A DNA stretch of 39,903 nt from contig SVPK01000007.1 of assembly GCA_015065875.1 (NCBI GenBank), positions 1 to 39,903 on the forward strand. Reading direction: 5' to 3'. This document shows positions 5,318-28,326 of this stretch, in pieces. How positions within the stretch are numbered: the stretch's first letter is position 1; every line of letters begins with the position of its first letter. The notes under the pieces were generated by a model. The model did no database searches. It was not told where the DNA came from and worked only from the letters and a program-made list of their open reading frames with translations. Both the position numbers and the translations under genes were made by a program. This stretch comes from Oscillospiraceae bacterium. GTDB taxonomy: Bacteria > Bacillota > Clostridia > Oscillospirales > Acutalibacteraceae.

Positions 5318-6799
5318 GTGAAAAGACCTATGCTAATATGCGGTTCGGGAGCGATGCTTTTCGCTATCGCTTTTGGGCTGTTTCCCTCGCATATTGCTCT
5401 TATCGTGTCACTTTCCTTTATTATTGTGGCGGGCTTTGCGGTGTTTTTGCGCGAGAGAAAAAGGGTGTCATATTTTTTACCGCTCTTTGTCGTTTTACTT
5501 TTGGTCTCGGTTTTGTGCTTTAGGGAATACCGTTTTATTGAAGACGCGAGTAGCTTTTGCGGGAACAAAACGGTTTATGGTACGGTTTGTGAAAAGGATA
5601 AAACCGGAGATGTAGTTAAATACATAGTAGATGTCGAAGCGATAGATTCTATCGAGGTTGATTTTAAAATAAACCTAATCTCCGCCGATGGATTTCAATT
5701 CTCGCCGGGCGATACGGTTAAAATGGGAGTAGAGTTTTCGGGCGACCGCGCTCCTACAAAGGCGCAGTTGGCTAATGGAATCAGACTCGTTGGAAAAATA
5801 AGCGAGGTTTACGAGGTTGGGAGTTCCGAATATTCGTTATATCGAATGCGGGATAGAATCAAGGATTTTATATCCGAAAAGCTTAATTTTCGTGAGGCGG
5901 GAACCATTGTAGGCATAATGCTTGGCGATGATTCTGCGGTTTCGGATTCGGTAAGAGAAAGCTTTAGCAGTGTAGGAATTAGCCATATTTTGGTGGTTTC
6001 GGGAATGCATTTTTCGGTTCTCGCGGGCGGAATATATCTTTTGCTTTGCCGCCTAAAGTTTAAAAGCCGCAGGGTTGGTATAATAGGGTTCTTATGCGTT
6101 ATTTATCTGATGGCGCTAACGGGCTTTACCGTTTCGGTTACCCGTGCGGGTCTCGCTTATCTTATAATGTTTTCGGGATTTTTAATAAATCGCCGACCCG
6201 ACCCTGTAAATTCCCTGTTTATGGCCATAACCATTATAATAATGGAAAATCCGTTGGCGATTTTCAGTATATCTTTTCAATTATCGTCGGCCGCAACCTT
6301 CGGGGTTATCGTTATGGCGCCGATGCTTTCCACCAAAAGAGAGAATAGAACACAAAAAAGATTTTTTGGCAGTATTTATAATCACCTAACAGATACCTTG
6401 CTTATGTCGGTTTCGGCCGGCATTATGACCATGCCTATAATTGTCTATAACTTTGGAACCATAAGCCCAATAATGCTGGTGTCCAATCTTGTTGTAGCCC
6501 CGTTATCGGTTGTTGTGCTTTGTCTTGCGGCGATTGCCGTTTTAATGATGTTTATGCCGCCGATATCCATAGTGATGTTATTGTTTGCGGGTATATTTAC
6601 CCGTATAATGATTGTAGCTGCAGAATATTTATCGGGACTGCCATATGCCAATTTTGCATTTTTTGATAGAACCATAGCGGTCCTTATTATGACCGTAATG
6701 GCATTGGGCTTTGTTGTTTTATGCTACTACAGATATGATAAGATTAAAAAAATAAAAAAGGAGGAACAGAAAAAATATGCCGATTGTAACCGAAAATGA
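5318..6799 (+). CDS. ComEC/Rec2-family competence membrane protein (channel domain only)
   Basis: GIMLGDDSAVSDSVRESFSSVGISHILVVSGMHFSVLAGG is the ComEC core; multiple TMs; no C-terminal metallo-beta-lactamase motifs. Confidence 0.85.
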   Translation: MKRPMLICGSGAMLFAIAFGLFPSHIALIVSLSFIIVAGFAVFLRERKRVSYFLPLFVVLLLVSVLCFREYRFIEDASSFCGNKTVYGTVCEKDKTGDVVKYIVDVEAIDSIEVDFKINLISADGFQFSPGDTVKMGVEFSGDRAPTKAQLANGIRLVGKISEVYEVGSSEYSLYRMRDRIKDFISEKLNFREAGTIVGIMLGDDSAVSDSVRESFSSVGISHILVVSGMHFSVLAGGIYLLLCRLKFKSRRVGIIGFLCVIYLMALTGFTVSVTRAGLAYLIMFSGFLINRRPDPVNSLFMAITIIIMENPLAIFSISFQLSSAATFGVIVMAPMLSTKRENRTQKRFFGSIYNHLTDTLLMSVSAGIMTMPIIVYNFGTISPIMLVSNLVVAPLSVVVLCLAAIAVLMMFMPPISIVMLLFAGIFTRIMIVAAEYLSGLPYANFAFFDRTIAVLIMTVMALGFVVLCYYRYDKIKKIKKEEQKKYADCNRK

Positions 6800-7835
6800 T
6801 TTAAAAAAGAATATCGAAAGCGGCAAAATGTTGCCCGTTTATTTTATCTACGGTAATGATGATGGGCTTAAAAAGCTGTATGCCTCCAAAATCAGAAGTA
6901 AGATAGTCCCCGAGGATGATTGCTTCAATTTCCAACGCTTCGAGGGCGATTGCGAGTTGCAGGGTGTATACGATGCCGTTATGCAGTTCCCGATGATGGC
7001 CGAACGCAAATGTGTTGTTTTGGCCGATTATGATTTTGAAAAATGCGGGGAGCATAACCTTGGAAGGCTTGTATCCCTTATCGAGGAAACCCCCGATACA
7101 TCAACCCTTATCCTTTGGTTCGATACCGCGCAGGTTGATGATAAAAAATCAAGCAAAGCAAAAAAACTTTTCGCGGCAGTTGAAAAGGCGGGGGGCATAA
7201 CCGTTCGCCTCGACCATAGAACAACCGCCGACCTGGTTAGAATGCTTTGTGCGGGCGCCGAGCGCAGGGGTTGCAAGATGGAGGGCTCAACCGCCCGATA
7301 TTTAATAGAAACCTGCTCTGCCGATTATAATATTCTAAAAAACGAGCTTGAAAAGCTTTGCTCGTTTGCGGGTGCCGCGCTTATAACCCGCGAAATGATA
7401 GATTCGGTTTGTGTTCGCTCGGTAGAAGCTTCGATTTATAATATTTCGCGCGAGTTAACCGCTAGAAATATAGGAAAAAGCATTAATATGCTTGATGAGT
7501 TGCTTTTTTTGAAGGTAAAACCGCATGTTATCCTCTCGGTATTGTCATCGGCTTTTATCGAAATGTATATCGCAAAAACTGCCGCCGATGCGGGCGTTCG
7601 TCCTGCCGATGCGGCGGCGCATTTTGGATATAAGGGCCGCGAGTTTGTTATAACCCGCGCGCTTGATAATTCGCGAAAAATGAGCGAGCGCCAGATAGGG
7701 CTTTGCCTTTCGGAGCTGCTCCTCGCCGATGAAAAAATTAAGAGCTTTACTTGTGATGAGCAAACGGTTTTAGAGGAACTAATGGTAAAATTGGTTTACA
7801 TAATGTCGGAGGGCGAAAAGATTGATAAAGCTTAA
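6777..7835 (+). CDS. holA: DNA polymerase III subunit delta
   Basis: HolA-like layout (PVYFIYGNDDGLKKLY..., C-terminal LSELLLADEKIKS); GGAGGAAC RBS. Confidence 0.85.
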   Translation: MPIVTENDLKKNIESGKMLPVYFIYGNDDGLKKLYASKIRSKIVPEDDCFNFQRFEGDCELQGVYDAVMQFPMMAERKCVVLADYDFEKCGEHNLGRLVSLIEETPDTSTLILWFDTAQVDDKKSSKAKKLFAAVEKAGGITVRLDHRTTADLVRMLCAGAERRGCKMEGSTARYLIETCSADYNILKNELEKLCSFAGAALITREMIDSVCVRSVEASIYNISRELTARNIGKSINMLDELLFLKVKPHVILSVLSSAFIEMYIAKTAADAGVRPADAAAHFGYKGREFVITRALDNSRKMSERQIGLCLSELLLADEKIKSFTCDEQTVLEELMVKLVYIMSEGEKIDKA

Positions 7836-21226: not shown

Positions 21227-22369
21227 ATGAAAACGATATCTATATTGGGCTCAACCGGCTCGATTGGAACACAGGCTCTTGAGGTCGCAAAAGCGGGTAA
21301 TATGCGTGTTGCCGCGATTGCGGCGGGCCGAAATATTGATTTGCTCGAAGCCCAAGCGCGAGAGTTTTGTCCCGACTTGGTTGCGGTTTTTGATACTGCT
21401 TTGGCAGAAAAACTAAAGGATAAATTATCCGATACCTCGATTCGCGTTTTGGCGGGTGAGGAGGGCGTTCTCGCCGCCGCAACCCACCCCGATGCCCAAA
21501 TCGTTCTTAATGCGATAGTAGGCATAGCGGGTCTTCGTTCAACCATGGCAATAATCGAGGCGGGCAAAACCTTGGCGCTTGCCAATAAGGAGTCGCTTGT
21601 AACTGCGGGCGAGCTCGTTATGGCGGCGGCAAAGAAAAAGGGAGTCAGTATTCTTCCCGTTGATAGCGAGCATTCGGCGATTTTCCAAAGCCTTCAGGGT
21701 GTTCCCGAGGGCTCTCTCCAAAAAATTCTTTTAACCGCTTCGGGCGGCCCCTTCTTTGGAAAAACCAGGGCAGAGCTCGAAAAGGTTACTCTTGAGGACG
21801 CTCTTAAGCATCCTAATTGGAGTATGGGTCAAAAAATAACCATCGATAGCGCAACGCTGATGAATAAGGGCCTCGAGGTTATCGAGGCGGCGCATCTTTT
21901 CTCTGTTTCGGCAGATGATATAGAGGTATTGGTTCATCGCCAGAGCATAATTCATTCGGCGGTTGAACTGCGCGATGGCGCCGTAATAGCCCAACTCGGA
22001 ACCGCAGATATGCGCCTTCCGATTCAGTATGCGATAACCTACCCGGAGCGCCTTCCGTGTCCCTGCGGCAGATTATCCTTGGCCGAGATAGGCTCGCTTA
22101 CCTTTGCCCATCCCGATACCGAAACCTTTGAGTGTCTTGCTTTATGTATCGAGGCTTCGCGAAAGGGCGGATTAAAGGCGGCGGCAGTAAACGGCGCAAA
22201 CGAAGCCGCAGTTGCCCTGTTTTTAGAAAAGAAAATTAAATTCCTCGATATCCCGCGCCTTGTTCGTTTGGCATATGAGGCGCAACCCGATGTTGATAGC
22301 TTTACTATCGAAGATGTCTTTGAGGCCGATAAGGCAGCGCGCGAAATTGTTCTTAAAAATTATAAGTAG
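21227..22369 (+). CDS. dxr: 1-deoxy-D-xylulose-5-phosphate reductoisomerase
   Basis: ISILGSTGSIGTQAL, ANKESLV, PVDSEHSAIFQSL, LTASGGPF. Confidence 0.99.
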   Translation: MKTISILGSTGSIGTQALEVAKAGNMRVAAIAAGRNIDLLEAQAREFCPDLVAVFDTALAEKLKDKLSDTSIRVLAGEEGVLAAATHPDAQIVLNAIVGIAGLRSTMAIIEAGKTLALANKESLVTAGELVMAAAKKKGVSILPVDSEHSAIFQSLQGVPEGSLQKILLTASGGPFFGKTRAELEKVTLEDALKHPNWSMGQKITIDSATLMNKGLEVIEAAHLFSVSADDIEVLVHRQSIIHSAVELRDGAVIAQLGTADMRLPIQYAITYPERLPCPCGRLSLAEIGSLTFAHPDTETFECLALCIEASRKGGLKAAAVNGANEAAVALFLEKKIKFLDIPRLVRLAYEAQPDVDSFTIEDVFEADKAAREIVLKNYK

Positions 22370-22377
22370 GTGATTTT

Positions 22378-23418
22378 ATCCTTTCCTTTCTTTCTTCCGT
22401 TTGGCCCTATGTTGTTGCGGTATTGATGTTTTTAATACTCGTTCTTATTCACGAGTTTGGCCATTTTATTGCCGCAAAGGCTATGGGTGTTCGTGTTAAT
22501 GAGTTCGCAATAGGCTTTGGACCGAAACTAGTGCGTTGGCGCTGGGGCGAAACAGAATATAAAATTAATCTTGTGCCATTCGGCGGCTATTGTGCAATGG
22601 AAGGCGAGGAGGAAGCAAGCGAGGATAGCCGTGCTTTTTGCAATAAAAAGGCGTGGCGACGCGCTATTGTTATAGTCGCGGGTGCGGTTTTTAATATTAT
22701 CCTCGGCTTCATAATCATAGGAGCAACCCTTCTTCCGAAGGAGCGCTTTGCAACAACCGTTGTTGCCGAATTTTCCGAAGAGGCAATAAGTAATCAAAGC
22801 GGCCTTGCGGTTGGCGATGAGATAATCGAGGTTGATGGTCGTCGCGTTTTTACAACCATTGACCTTGGCTATATGTTTACAGGAATAAAGGGAAATACGG
22901 TTGACCTAACCGTATTGCGAAACGGCAACGAGGTCTTTCTCGATGATGTTGAATTTAAAACAACGCAGGTTGACGGAATCAATGTAATCAAGAATGACTT
23001 TTGGGTTGCCCCGCAGGCAAAAACCTTCGGAACGGTTATAAGCCAAACCTTTAAAACGGGTCTTTCCTATGGTAGAGTCGTTTGGTTTTCGCTGGTCGAC
23101 CTCATAACGGGCAAATATGGTATATCTGCCGTATCGGGTCCCGTTGGGGTAACCGAGGTTATAGGCTCGGCGGCAAAGCAGAGTCTTTCTAACATTTGGC
23201 CCATTATGGCGCTTATAACCATAAACCTGGGTATATTTAATCTTTTGCCCTTGCCCGCGCTCGATGGCGGCAGGCTATTATTTATCCTAATTGAACTGAT
23301 TTTCAGAAAAAAGGTTCCCGAAAAATATGAATCCTTAATCCATGCGGCAGGCTTTATTTTGCTTATAGTTTTAATGTTGGCCATAACCGCAAAGGATATT
23401 TGGGCTTTGGTGGTGTAA
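22378..23418 (+). CDS. rseP: RIP metalloprotease RseP, site-2 protease; start proposed at ATC 22378 (first canonical start is TTG 22423)
   Basis: HEFGHF zinc motif, PDZ, NLLPLPALDGGR; AAGTAGGTGAT SD at 22364-22374 fits ATC 22378. Confidence 0.92.
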   Translation: MLSFLSSVWPYVVAVLMFLILVLIHEFGHFIAAKAMGVRVNEFAIGFGPKLVRWRWGETEYKINLVPFGGYCAMEGEEEASEDSRAFCNKKAWRRAIVIVAGAVFNIILGFIIIGATLLPKERFATTVVAEFSEEAISNQSGLAVGDEIIEVDGRRVFTTIDLGYMFTGIKGNTVDLTVLRNGNEVFLDDVEFKTTQVDGINVIKNDFWVAPQAKTFGTVISQTFKTGLSYGRVVWFSLVDLITGKYGISAVSGPVGVTEVIGSAAKQSLSNIWPIMALITINLGIFNLLPLPALDGGRLLFILIELIFRKKVPEKYESLIHAAGFILLIVLMLAITAKDIWALVV

Positions 23419-23421
23419 TTT

Positions 23422-24486
23422 ATGTATCTGCGAAAAACAACGCGACAGGTTAAAATAGGAAATAAACTTATGGGCGGCGGAGCCGATGTTCTTATTCAGT
23501 CGATGCTCAATGTTCCTGCCCATGATTTTGAAGGCAATATTGCACAAGCAAAGGCGCTTGAGGCCGCAGGCTGCGAGATAATCCGCGTTTCGGTTCCCGA
23601 TATCGAAACGGTAAAGCTTATCCCGCTTCTTAAGGATGCGGTTTCGGTTCCGATTGTTGCCGATATCCATTTTGACCATCGCTTGGCGCTCGAATCGGTT
23701 GCCGCGGGTGTTGATAAGGTTCGTATTAACCCCGGTAACATCGGCGAGGAGCAGAATGTGAAGAAGGTTGCCGATGCCTGTCGATGTGCGGGCGTTCCCA
23801 TCCGAATCGGGGTTAACTCCGGCTCGGTTGAAAAGGGAATACTCGCAAAGCATGGCGGACCTACTCCGGCCGCATTGGTCGAGAGCGGAAAATATCATAT
23901 CTCCTTACTCGAAAAATATGATTTTAACGATATAGTTTTATCGCTAAAATCCTCCGATACTCAAACTATGTATGATACCTATGTTTTAGCCGCCGAAACG
24001 GTTCCGTATCCGCTCCATCTCGGCGTTACCGAGGCGGGAACGGCGCATATGGGTCTTGTTCGCTCGGCCGCCGGCATAGGAGGACTTTTGCTTCGCGGTA
24101 TAGGTGATACCATTCGTGTTTCCCTAACCGATGACCCCGTAAAAGAAATCGCGGCCGCGAAGGATATTTTATCTGCAACAGGTGTTAGATGCGAGGGCGC
24201 TCGCATAGTTTCTTGTCCTACCTGCGGCAGAACCAAGGTTAACCTTATAGAACTTGCAAACGAAGCCGAGAAGGCGCTTGCAGGCTTTACTAAAAATATA
24301 ACCGTTGCAATAATGGGTTGCGCCGTTAATGGCCCCGGCGAGGCGCGCGAAGCCGATATCGGTATCGCGGGCGGCGATGGTTGCGGTCTTATCTTTAAAA
24401 AGGGTGAGATTATCAGAAAGGTTCCGCAGGATGAGCTTTTTGCGGAGCTTATGAAAGAAATTAAGAATGAATATGGTGAATGGTAA
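23422..24486 (+). CDS. ispG: (E)-4-hydroxy-3-methylbut-2-enyl-diphosphate synthase
   Basis: IQSMLNVPAHD, RINPGNIG, CPTCGRT and MGCAVNGPGE Fe-S motifs. Confidence 0.98.
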   Translation: MYLRKTTRQVKIGNKLMGGGADVLIQSMLNVPAHDFEGNIAQAKALEAAGCEIIRVSVPDIETVKLIPLLKDAVSVPIVADIHFDHRLALESVAAGVDKVRINPGNIGEEQNVKKVADACRCAGVPIRIGVNSGSVEKGILAKHGGPTPAALVESGKYHISLLEKYDFNDIVLSLKSSDTQTMYDTYVLAAETVPYPLHLGVTEAGTAHMGLVRSAAGIGGLLLRGIGDTIRVSLTDDPVKEIAAAKDILSATGVRCEGARIVSCPTCGRTKVNLIELANEAEKALAGFTKNITVAIMGCAVNGPGEAREADIGIAGGDGCGLIFKKGEIIRKVPQDELFAELMKEIKNEYGEW

Positions 24487-27400
24487 ATGCCAAACAGTAG
24501 TTTTATAAATATATTCGGCGATTATCTGTCCTCCGAACTGAAATCGGCTTTGCCGAGCGGTGAGGTGGGGGAGTGCTCATTATCGCTTGAGGAGCGCTCC
24601 TTAAGGCTTTCGGTCGCCTTTGAGGATTACATACCATATAGAACAATACTCGAAACCGAATCCTCAATTAAGAGAGTTTTATCGCTTGAGAGTCTTGATT
24701 TTAAGTATTCTTTTCCGAAGGAGTGCTTAAATCTTGATGCGCTTGTTGATTTGAGCAGTGTTATTAAGAGCAAGAATGCGGCATATAACGGATATTTTAA
24801 CGGTGCCGAATATTCTTATGAAGGCATATTCTTTAATATAGTTTTAAAATTCGGCGGTCTTTCGGCTGTTAAAGGCTTGCATTTCGATGTTGAACTTAAA
24901 AAGCTTGTAAAGGAGCTTTTCGCGGTTGATATCGAGGTAGTGATTTCGGGCGAGGAGGCTCTTTCTGCCCCCGAAACCCCCGAGGCTCCGATAAGCGCAC
25001 CCCCGCGCCCCGAAAAACCTGCTCAAAAGCCTGCGGCGCCCGTAGAGTCAAAGCCTAAAAAGGTGTTTAGCGGAAAACCGGCCGATGGGCTTCCCGTCTA
25101 TCTTGAGAGCGCCGAGCTTTTTTATGGACGAGCCCTCGACCGTAAGGTAAAGCCGCTATCCGAATATATCCCGCTCGGCAGTCCCGATGCGCAGGCCAAG
25201 TTCTGCGGATGGGGAAGGGTGTTTGAGGTTGATTCTCGAACAGTTAACACCAAGCGCGGCCCCATGGTTAGCTGTAAATTCTGCTTTAGCGATAATACCA
25301 ATTCGCTCGAAGCAAGTCTATTTATAGATGCAAAGCGCAAAGAGGAGATAAAGCCGCTTTCGAACGGCGCAGTTTTGCTTGTTAACGGAACCTATGAATA
25401 CGACCGTTGGATGGATAGCTTCATAGTTAAGGTATCCGCGCTTGCAACGCTTGAGGAATATTTCCCCAAGGATGAAGCCGAGCATAAAAGAATCGAGCTT
25501 CATTGCCATACCAATATGTCGGCCAAGGATGCAGTAAGCTCGGCAGGCGATATAATTAAGCATGCCGCCAAGTTGGGTCACAGTGCAATCGCAATAACCG
25601 ACCATGGCGTTGTTCAGGCTTATCCCGCCGCCGCGGCCGCAGTTAAAAAATTGCGTAAGGCAGGCAAGGATTTTAAGGTTATATACGGCGTTGAGGGCTA
25701 TTTGGTTGACGATGAAAAATATGACCTCTCCAAAATGAATTCAAAAGAAATCGGTAAGCTTCGCCGCCATATAATAATGTTGGTTAAGGACTTTACCGGT
25801 CTTAAAAACCTATATAAGCTGGTATCCGAGGCGCATTTAAACGATTTCCATGGTCGCCCCTGCACCCTGCGAAGCAAGCTTAAAGCCCATCGCGAGGGTC
25901 TTATTGTAGGAAGTGCCTGCGAGGCGGGCGAGTTTTATACCGCGATTATCGATGGTAAAACCGATGAAGAGCTTTGTGAGATAGCGAGATTTTATGATTA
26001 TCTCGAAATCCAACCGGTAGGCAACAACGAGTTTATGATTCGTGCTTCGGCCGAACCCGACCATGTTGATAAGCGTAGCGGCGCAGTAACGCCTAACCGC
26101 TTCCGCCGCGTTACCTCGTTTGATGTTATTCGTGATTTCAACCGTAAGGTTGTTGAAATAGCCGATAAGGTTGGTCTCCCCGTTGTTGCAACGGGCGACG
26201 TTCACTTCCTCAAAAAAGAGGATGAGGTAATAAGAAAGATATTGCTTGCGGGTCAGGGCTTTGATGATTTTGACCATCAGGCACCCCTTTGGTTGCATAC
26301 AACGGCCGAAATGCTTGAGGAGTTTTCCTATTTTGGTGACCGCGCCGAAGAATTTGTTGTTACCAATCCTGCCAAGATAAATGAAATGATAAGCGGCGAT
26401 ATAATTCCCGTTCCCGATGGAAATTATCCGCCGGTTATTGAGGGCTCGGATGATGAGCTTCGCGATATCTGTCGCAAGCGCGCCCGCGCTATGTATGGCG
26501 ACCCATTGCCCCCGTATGTTGAGGAGCGCCTTGAAAAGGAATTAAACGGTATTATTAACAACGGATATTCTATAATGTATATGTCGGCTCAACGATTGGT
26601 TAAATACAGCGAGGATAACGGCTATCTTGTTGGAAGCCGTGGTTCGGTTGGTTCATCCTTCGTTGCAACCATGGCGGGTATATCCGAGGTGAACCCGCTT
26701 GCGCCGCATTATTACTGTCCCGAATGTCAGTATAATGAGTTTTTCCTAAAAGGCGAGGTAGGCTCAGGCTTTGATTTGCCCGAAAAGAATTGCCCAAAAT
26801 GCGGGGCGCCGCTATTGCGCGATGGTCATGATATCCCGTTTGAAACCTTCCTTGGCTTTAAGGGCGATAAGGTTCCTGATATCGACCTTAACTTCTCGGA
26901 TGAATTCCAATCCGAGGTTCAAAAATATACCGAGCAGCTTTTCGGTCGCGAGAATGTTTTCAAAGCGGGAACAATATCTACCATAGCCGAAAAAACCGCC
27001 TTCGGTTTTGCAAAGGCCTATGCCGAAAAGAAAAATATTGTTCTCAACAACGCGGAGCTTAAGCGCCTGGCAGGACTTCTCCGTGATAGCGAGGTTAAAT
27101 CAACAACCGGTCAGCACCCTGCGGGTATGATTGTTGTTCCCCGCGATAAAGAAATATATGATTTCTGCCCCATTCAGCACCCCGCCGATGATACCGAATC
27201 GGATATTATAACAACCCATTTCGATTTCCATTCGATTCATGATACCATCCTAAAGCTCGACGAGCTCGGTCACGTTGTTCCTACAACATATAAATATCTT
27301 GAGGAATTTTCGGGCATACCCGTAAACGCTGTTTCGATGAGTGACCCTGCGGTTTATTCGTTGTTTACCTCAACCGAGGCACTGGGCGTTACCCCTGAGG

Positions 27401-28326
27401 AGATTTTCTCCCAAAACGGAACCTTCTGTATTCCCGAATTCGGAACCGATTTCGTTCGCGGAATGCTTCTCGATTGCCGACCCAAGAACTTTGCCGACCT
27501 TTTGCAGATTTCGGGTCTGTCTCACGGAACCGATGTTTACCTCGGCAATGCGAAGGACCTTATCGATAAGGGAATCTGCACCATTTCGGAGGTTATCGGA
27601 ACCCGTGATAATATAATGGTATACCTTATTCATCAGGGCATCGAGAGCGGACTGGCCTTTAAAATAACCGAAACCGTTCGTAAGGGACTTATAGCAAAGG
27701 GTGCCGTTTCAATGGATGAATGGAACTCAATGACCGATGTTATGCGTGAGCATGGAGTTCCCGAATGGTATATTGAGAGCTGCGGAAAGATAAAATATAT
27801 GTTCCCCAAGGCCCATGCCGCAGCATATGTTATTTCTGCGCTTCGTCTTGCTTGGTATAAGGTTCATAAGCCTATTGAGTTTTATTGTGCCTTCTTTACC
27901 GCCCGTCCCGAAGATATCGAGGTTGAAACCGTTATGCGCGGCAAGGAGGCCGTGCGTCAAAGAATTGCATCCATTAAGGCAAAGGGTAAGGAAGCATCGG
28001 TTAAGGAAACCGATGTTCATAATAAGCTTCTTATTATAAATGAGATGTTGAGCCGCGGACTTGAGATACTGCCCATTGACCTCAAGAAATCTCATGCAAC
28101 CCGTTATGAACTTGAGGATGGGAAAATGCGCTTGCCGTTCTGCGCTCTTTCGGGCGTAGGCGATAAGGCGGCCGAAGCAATCTATGCCGCCGCGCAAGAA
28201 GGGGATTATATCTCGAAGGATGAGTTCCAAACCGCCGCAGGCGTTAGTAAAACCATTATCCAGACCCTTTCTGACATAGGCGCGCTGGGCGATTTGCCCG
28301 ATTCTAACCAAATGTCGTTCTTTTAA
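24487..28326 (+). CDS. polC: DNA polymerase III alpha subunit, PolC type, without the internal exonuclease domain
   Basis: PolC N-domain, OB fold, PHP (ELHCHTNMSAKDAVSS), GDKVPDIDLNFS catalytic motif, TTGQHPAGMIVVP, C-terminal HhH. Confidence 0.96.
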   Translation: MPNSSFINIFGDYLSSELKSALPSGEVGECSLSLEERSLRLSVAFEDYIPYRTILETESSIKRVLSLESLDFKYSFPKECLNLDALVDLSSVIKSKNAAYNGYFNGAEYSYEGIFFNIVLKFGGLSAVKGLHFDVELKKLVKELFAVDIEVVISGEEALSAPETPEAPISAPPRPEKPAQKPAAPVESKPKKVFSGKPADGLPVYLESAELFYGRALDRKVKPLSEYIPLGSPDAQAKFCGWGRVFEVDSRTVNTKRGPMVSCKFCFSDNTNSLEASLFIDAKRKEEIKPLSNGAVLLVNGTYEYDRWMDSFIVKVSALATLEEYFPKDEAEHKRIELHCHTNMSAKDAVSSAGDIIKHAAKLGHSAIAITDHGVVQAYPAAAAAVKKLRKAGKDFKVIYGVEGYLVDDEKYDLSKMNSKEIGKLRRHIIMLVKDFTGLKNLYKLVSEAHLNDFHGRPCTLRSKLKAHREGLIVGSACEAGEFYTAIIDGKTDEELCEIARFYDYLEIQPVGNNEFMIRASAEPDHVDKRSGAVTPNRFRRVTSFDVIRDFNRKVVEIADKVGLPVVATGDVHFLKKEDEVIRKILLAGQGFDDFDHQAPLWLHTTAEMLEEFSYFGDRAEEFVVTNPAKINEMISGDIIPVPDGNYPPVIEGSDDELRDICRKRARAMYGDPLPPYVEERLEKELNGIINNGYSIMYMSAQRLVKYSEDNGYLVGSRGSVGSSFVATMAGISEVNPLAPHYYCPECQYNEFFLKGEVGSGFDLPEKNCPKCGAPLLRDGHDIPFETFLGFKGDKVPDIDLNFSDEFQSEVQKYTEQLFGRENVFKAGTISTIAEKTAFGFAKAYAEKKNIVLNNAELKRLAGLLRDSEVKSTTGQHPAGMIVVPRDKEIYDFCPIQHPADDTESDIITTHFDFHSIHDTILKLDELGHVVPTTYKYLEEFSGIPVNAVSMSDPAVYSLFTSTEALGVTPEEIFSQNGTFCIPEFGTDFVRGMLLDCRPKNFADLLQISGLSHGTDVYLGNAKDLIDKGICTISEVIGTRDNIMVYLIHQGIESGLAFKITETVRKGLIAKGAVSMDEWNSMTDVMREHGVPEWYIESCGKIKYMFPKAHAAAYVISALRLAWYKVHKPIEFYCAFFTARPEDIEVETVMRGKEAVRQRIASIKAKGKEASVKETDVHNKLLIINEMLSRGLEILPIDLKKSHATRYELEDGKMRLPFCALSGVGDKAAEAIYAAAQEGDYISKDEFQTAAGVSKTIIQTLSDIGALGDLPDSNQMSFF

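Follow-up and report, generated by a model that had tools for sequence, protein, structure and literature searches.

PolC-type DNA polymerase III alpha subunits of the Bacillus subtilis and Enterococcus faecium type (9QPC) carry a DEDDh exonuclease between the third and fourth strands of the PHP domain. The loop into which the PolC exonuclease is inserted forms the lining of the PHP substrate groove in Mycobacterium tuberculosis DnaE1; it is 29 residues long there and 18 in Taq (PMC5636811). In a survey of about 2000 genomes, 6% of PolCs (16% within the PolC + DnaE1 set) were devoid of the exonuclease, nearly all of them from Clostridia and Negativicutes (Timinskas et al. 2013; PMC3919608). 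The same survey called the PolC + DnaE1 set experimentally uncharacterised, asked whether it is DnaE1 that replicates the genome in bacteria with an exonuclease-less (exo-less) PolC, and already noted Clostridia that possess DnaE1 only (PMC3919608).

The polC locus and its product

The window, i.e. the whole stretch of 39,903 nucleotides analysed here, is contig C26 of the draft genome of an uncultured gut clostridium (1.32 Mb, 79 contigs, 80% complete). It encodes a PolC that, judging from its sequence, is a genuine and functional-looking enzyme whose DEDDh exonuclease appears to have been deleted from within the PHP domain in evolution. The gene order at the locus is dxr, rseP-like, ispG, polC, and the features are as follows.

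21227..22369, + strand: dxr, upstream neighbour of polC (Pfam DXP_reductoisom)
22423..23418, + strand: RseP-like M50 peptidase, upstream neighbour of polC (Pfam Peptidase_M50)
23422..24486, + strand: ispG (GcpE), directly upstream of polC and marker of the polC locus in relatives (Pfam GcpE, E 4.9e-141)
24487..28326, + strand: polC, exonuclease-less PolC-type DNA polymerase III alpha subunit, 1279 aa (single ORF; PRK00448, TIGR01405)
25501..26205, + strand: PHP domain with nine metal ligands, H339, H341, D372, H373, E403, H428, C478, D571 and H573, all present (family alignment; Pfam PHP 337-503)
25696..25767, + strand: junction, the 24 aa (residues 404-427) that separate PHP ligands E403 and H428; exo+ PolCs have the DEDDh insertion of about 190 aa here (family alignment; no PF00929 match)
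26878..27261, + strand: palm catalytic triad D798, D800 (PDIDLNFS) and D925 (LKLDELGH), invariant across all aligned PolCs
28309..28323, + strand: C-terminal sliding-clamp-binding motif QMSFF (sequence; consensus end QxSFF / QxSLF in relatives)

The protein scores 1327.8 bits against NCBIfam PRK00448 (cut-off 873) and 1230.6 bits against TIGR01405 (cut-off 1043). A Pfam scan recovers PHP (337-503), DNA_pol3_alpha, the finger domain and HHH_6. The N-terminal domain NI stays below the cut-off (PF14480, E 0.039); the N-terminal domains of PolC are known to be poorly conserved (PMC3919608). An OB domain precedes PHP, as the alignment to 3f2b starts at residue 245 and the structural model has a beta-rich domain N-terminal to PHP. 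The first-pass annotation had listed the PHP metal-site motifs HCH, TDH, GVE, RRH, SAC and TGDVH as intact and the polymerase motif PDIDLNFS as present; all were found, the former making up the nine ligands HHDHEHCDH and the latter belonging to an intact palm triad. Elsewhere in the window, a gene for the delta subunit of the DNA polymerase III clamp loader lies at 6777-7835 (+), beside one for a ComEC-like competence protein.

The junction left by the exonuclease

No match to PF00929/RNase_T was obtained in a Pfam scan of all 1279 residues, which together with an 18-residue join bears out the earlier reading that the polypeptide contains no exonuclease domain. The junction sequence quoted in the first-pass annotation lies at residues 401-441, with GVE at nucleotide 25687, within 3 bases of where it had been placed before. 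In the family alignment the segment between E403 and H428 comprises 18 residues in the window PolC against about 207 (180-220) in exo+ relatives. This puts the missing piece at about 190 aa, somewhat more than the roughly 170 aa proposed earlier, although the loss itself stands. The E-to-H spacing of 25 residues equals the median among exo-less PolCs, which range from 14 to 45. It can be surmised that removal of the exonuclease restores a loop of DnaE-like length. An AlphaFold model of residues 200-1279, built from 21 sequences, has a mean pLDDT of 87 and about 90 across the PHP join; its best structural matches are Geobacillus kaustophilus PolC (3f2b/3f2c, TM 0.85/0.92), followed by E. faecium PolC and M. 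tuberculosis DnaE1.

In a draft genome of 79 contigs and 80% completeness, the domain might have been removed by an error of assembly or binning. The reading frame however continues unbroken through the junction, and independent assemblies share this join, among them both congeners (G002 and G001, 86% and 75% identity to the window PolC), dozens more, and the named isolates Anaerovibrio lipolyticus LB2005, Desulfosporosinus fructosivorans 63.6F and Cuneatibacter sp. NSJ-177. The join is thus neither a chance event nor an assembly deletion; its recurrence already refutes an artefact, the probability of which is negligible. Nor does the assembly hold a second, exonuclease-containing polC, as its PF07733 matches are the window gene and a DnaE gene on contig C72.

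Distribution and repeated loss

Exo-less PolCs are encoded by 46 of the 135 PolC-bearing genomes among 151 drawn from the family, a count made by hand in which a single alignment segment had to cross the junction; the remaining PolCs either aligned as separate segments flanking the insertion or were too fragmentary for a call. These figures, and the join in the two congeners, support a clade-wide loss. The RNase_T model independently locates the exonuclease within the long PolC frames listed. Outside the family, exo-less PolCs turn up in roughly nine families of the same class (about 23 of the 183 sampled genomes with PolC, alignment spans having been judged by hand). Among the named records are Cuneatibacter sp. 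NSJ-177, D. fructosivorans, Selenomonas ruminantium and A. lipolyticus, while the closest named records to the window PolC (60-65% identity) come from uncultured ruminant-gut Clostridia, Oscillospiraceae and Ruminococcaceae.

When mapped onto an RpoB tree covering 100 family genomes, exo-less status changes 16 times, at least eight of which are forced by well-supported branches; when exo-less and PolC-absent genomes are pooled there are 11 changes, at least seven of them forced. A tree of the PolC core (130 sequences, exonuclease columns excluded) has nine changes of exonuclease state, at least eight of them forced. Such counts by themselves carry no direction, but the insertion site is identical across PolCs and decaying intermediates exist, which argues that the domain was probably lost, many times among the relatives. 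The widely differing linker lengths also fit independent deletions. An association of exo-less lineages with smaller genomes (p = 0.0006, uncorrected) was discarded, as phylogenetically independent pairs did not support it.

Some genomes additionally encode short accessory PolC-like polymerases of 703-841 aa (L270:3969-6494 (-) in G163, L271:4230-6545 (-) in G090 and G031:C2:64669-66630). The two that were scanned comprise PHP and the polymerase core with no exonuclease or HhH match. Their neighbours are a SNF2-type helicase and a phosphoesterase, or a DUF2779/Cas4-like protein and a PD-(D/E)XK nuclease, and they may belong to mobile or defence loci.

Inactivated exonucleases and loss of PolC

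The DEDDh residues are complete in 71 of 73 insert-bearing PolCs. In G018 (L019) and L116 the insert is kept at 180-185 residues while the DEDDh residues are lost and the PHP site retains nine of nine ligands. In G163 (L266), a congener of G018, the PolC has no RNase_T match among the matches listed; its sequence diverges after the PHP strand and only weak residual similarity is left. PolCs that combine a dead exonuclease with an intact PHP site, as read in G018 and L116, are exceptions to the general statement of a 2026 survey (PMC12926913).

Eight family genomes that are at least 90% complete have no PolC match. PolC is absent from both the ispG locus and the whole assembly in six of the same family (G010, G061, G062, G074, G093 and G097, 95-99% complete) and likewise in G033, which belongs to the same order; in all seven ispG lies within its contig and is followed by other sequence. 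This count omits G125, where ispG is at a contig edge, and G054, which has no ispG match. In the class-wide sample, all five genomes of family f22 (0.8-1.1 Mb, 98-100% complete) and both of f75 likewise gave no PolC match at E <= 1e-100.

These stages may be arranged as a stepwise loss within the family, from death of the active site (G018/G163, L116) through deletion of the domain (the window) to, sometimes, loss of PolC itself. The PolC exonuclease would then be dispensable and, in a cell devoid of DnaQ, fidelity would depend entirely on PHP sites, amounting to a natural PHP-only replisome with two polymerases. This extended proposal is tentative and has somewhat less than an even chance of being right.

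Candidate proofreaders

To account for the missing proofreading, the first-pass annotation had offered a separate exonuclease, an active PHP site or tolerance of higher mutation rates; it mentioned neither a second replicase nor the 2013 report of exo-less clostridial PolCs. The PHP site finds indirect support. All nine ligands and the three palm aspartates are present in 58 of 58 aligned exo-less PolCs, and nine of nine are also retained by DnaE1 in each of the nine genomes inspected, among them the window genome. The ligands are equally intact in 72 of 72 exo+ PolCs of the same set, so that their conservation is compatible with PHP proofreading and not diagnostic of a takeover. No measured PHP exonuclease activity was found in the literature for any clostridial PolC. 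The likeliest remaining proofreader would be the PHP site of PolC, of DnaE1 or of both.

It is improbable that the exonuclease moved out of PolC into a stand-alone DnaQ-like protein that works in trans. In its favour, some exo-less or PolC-less genomes (G025, G081, G093, G097 and G108) encode a strongly scoring stand-alone DEDD protein. These stand-alone proteins are however unlike one another and include Cas2-fusion-like (G065, G163) and BRCT-fusion-like forms (G061, G166, G041). A consistent trans exonuclease is unlikely because 11 exo-less genomes of at least 90% completeness (G002, G020, G058, G060, G064, G103, G109, G110, G133, G145 and G148) contain no PF00929 protein at E <= 1e-4. No recognisable DnaQ was found in the window genome, at its completeness of 80%; its sole PF00929 protein is a KapD-like DEDD protein of 297 aa with weak scores (35 bits), encoded next to a gene for a BipA-like GTPase (named by eye), and matches of similar size are also found in exo+ genomes. 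A separate exonuclease is thus not supported as the compensation. The Pol I 3'-5' exonuclease model gave a sub-threshold match only, in a 708-aa frame.

No DEDD gene common to the exo-less genomes emerged from a search for one: the candidates were unrelated singletons, BRCT-like fusions, and Cas2-DnaQ-like fusions with a Cas1-sized ORF next to them. The DEDD protein of G025 was considered as a split-off PolC exonuclease and dropped, a high score having been all that suggested it. Fusions of a Cas2-like domain to a DnaQ-like exonuclease are located at L250:945-1907 (+), L252:1084-2001 (+) and L257:851-1819 (-), each beside a Cas1-sized ORF of 315-320 aa (Cas calls by eye).

Higher mutation rates are not indicated either, in what is a weak test. 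RpoB branch lengths give no sign that exo-less lineages evolve faster (p = 0.15 for root-to-tip distances and p = 0.27 for terminal branches), and MutS is present in the window genome.

The second PF07733 gene, on contig C72, is of the DnaE type, with nine of nine PHP ligands and the clamp motif QLDLF. From these features and its clostridial relatives, in place of a tree, it is probably DnaE1 rather than DnaE3. DnaE1 could copy most of the genome and proofread through its own PHP site, with PolC reduced to an auxiliary function for which proofreading is irrelevant, so that its exonuclease decays and the gene is sometimes lost. The survey that raised this idea (PMC3919608), the intact PHP and clamp-type motif of DnaE1, the dead exonucleases of G018/G163 and L116 beside intact PHP sites, and the absence of PolC from locus and assembly in the seven genomes named above all speak for it. 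Against this, exo-less PolCs retain the palm triad, the PHP ligands, the zinc cysteines and the clamp motif; the lack of any sign of decay suggests a continued demanding role, and a large share for DnaE1 would in any case be compatible with PHP proofreading by PolC. Such a demotion is considered unlikely, albeit a good deal less so than a trans exonuclease.

The explanation preferred here, with moderate confidence, is that an exo-less PolC works with DnaE1 in a replisome that has no DnaQ. The DEDDh exonuclease would have been deleted and the PHP strands rejoined through a short DnaE-like hairpin, with OB, PHP, palm, fingers, HhH and clamp motif kept. The two polymerases would presumably share the fork, the trinuclear-metal PHP site of PolC and/or its DnaE1 partner would excise mismatches, and mismatch repair would serve as a backup.

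These genomes bear on whether PolC proofreads through PHP and on what it does alongside DnaE1. Exo-less PolC genomes that have no DnaQ-type protein isolate PHP as the only known replicative proofreader and so make PHP-only proofreading directly testable. As PolC inhibitors are in clinical development (PMC12592400), the absence of PolC from some gut clostridia also matters.

Comparison with known systems

Once its exonuclease is removed, G. kaustophilus PolC (3F2B/3F2C; 1026 bits) is like the window PolC in its domains. The 3F2B construct had the exonuclease removed for crystallisation (PMC12592400), so that the window protein is by nature similar to an engineered enzyme for which a complex with DNA and dGTP is known. 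The two differ in the PHP site, where the alignment reads GNVH in G. kaustophilus and GDVH in the window. The substitution appears to be the one meant by the report that one of the nine PHP ligands of G. kaustophilus PolC is mutated and that the enzyme has no PHP exonuclease activity (PMC5636811).

M. tuberculosis DnaE1 shares with the window PolC a nine-ligand PHP site and a polypeptide devoid of a DEDD domain. It is of the DnaE type with a different domain order, and its PHP exonuclease has been measured (PMC5636811), whereas the window PolC is known from sequence. B. subtilis and E. faecium PolC (9QPC) belong to the same PolC family and share OB, PHP, palm, HhH and clamp motif, but differ in carrying the DEDDh insertion.

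The closest counterparts are the exo-less PolCs of Clostridia and Negativicutes (PMC3919608), which likewise have no Exo insertion, a DnaE1 partner and a conserved PHP site. The window PolC belongs to this variant reported in 2013 and is known in kind. Set against the survey of that year, its family adds 46 exo-less genomes out of 135, dead-exonuclease intermediates and loss of PolC; possibly new are the frequency of exo-less PolCs within the family, the lineages with a catalytically dead exonuclease and the loss of PolC from six near-complete genomes.
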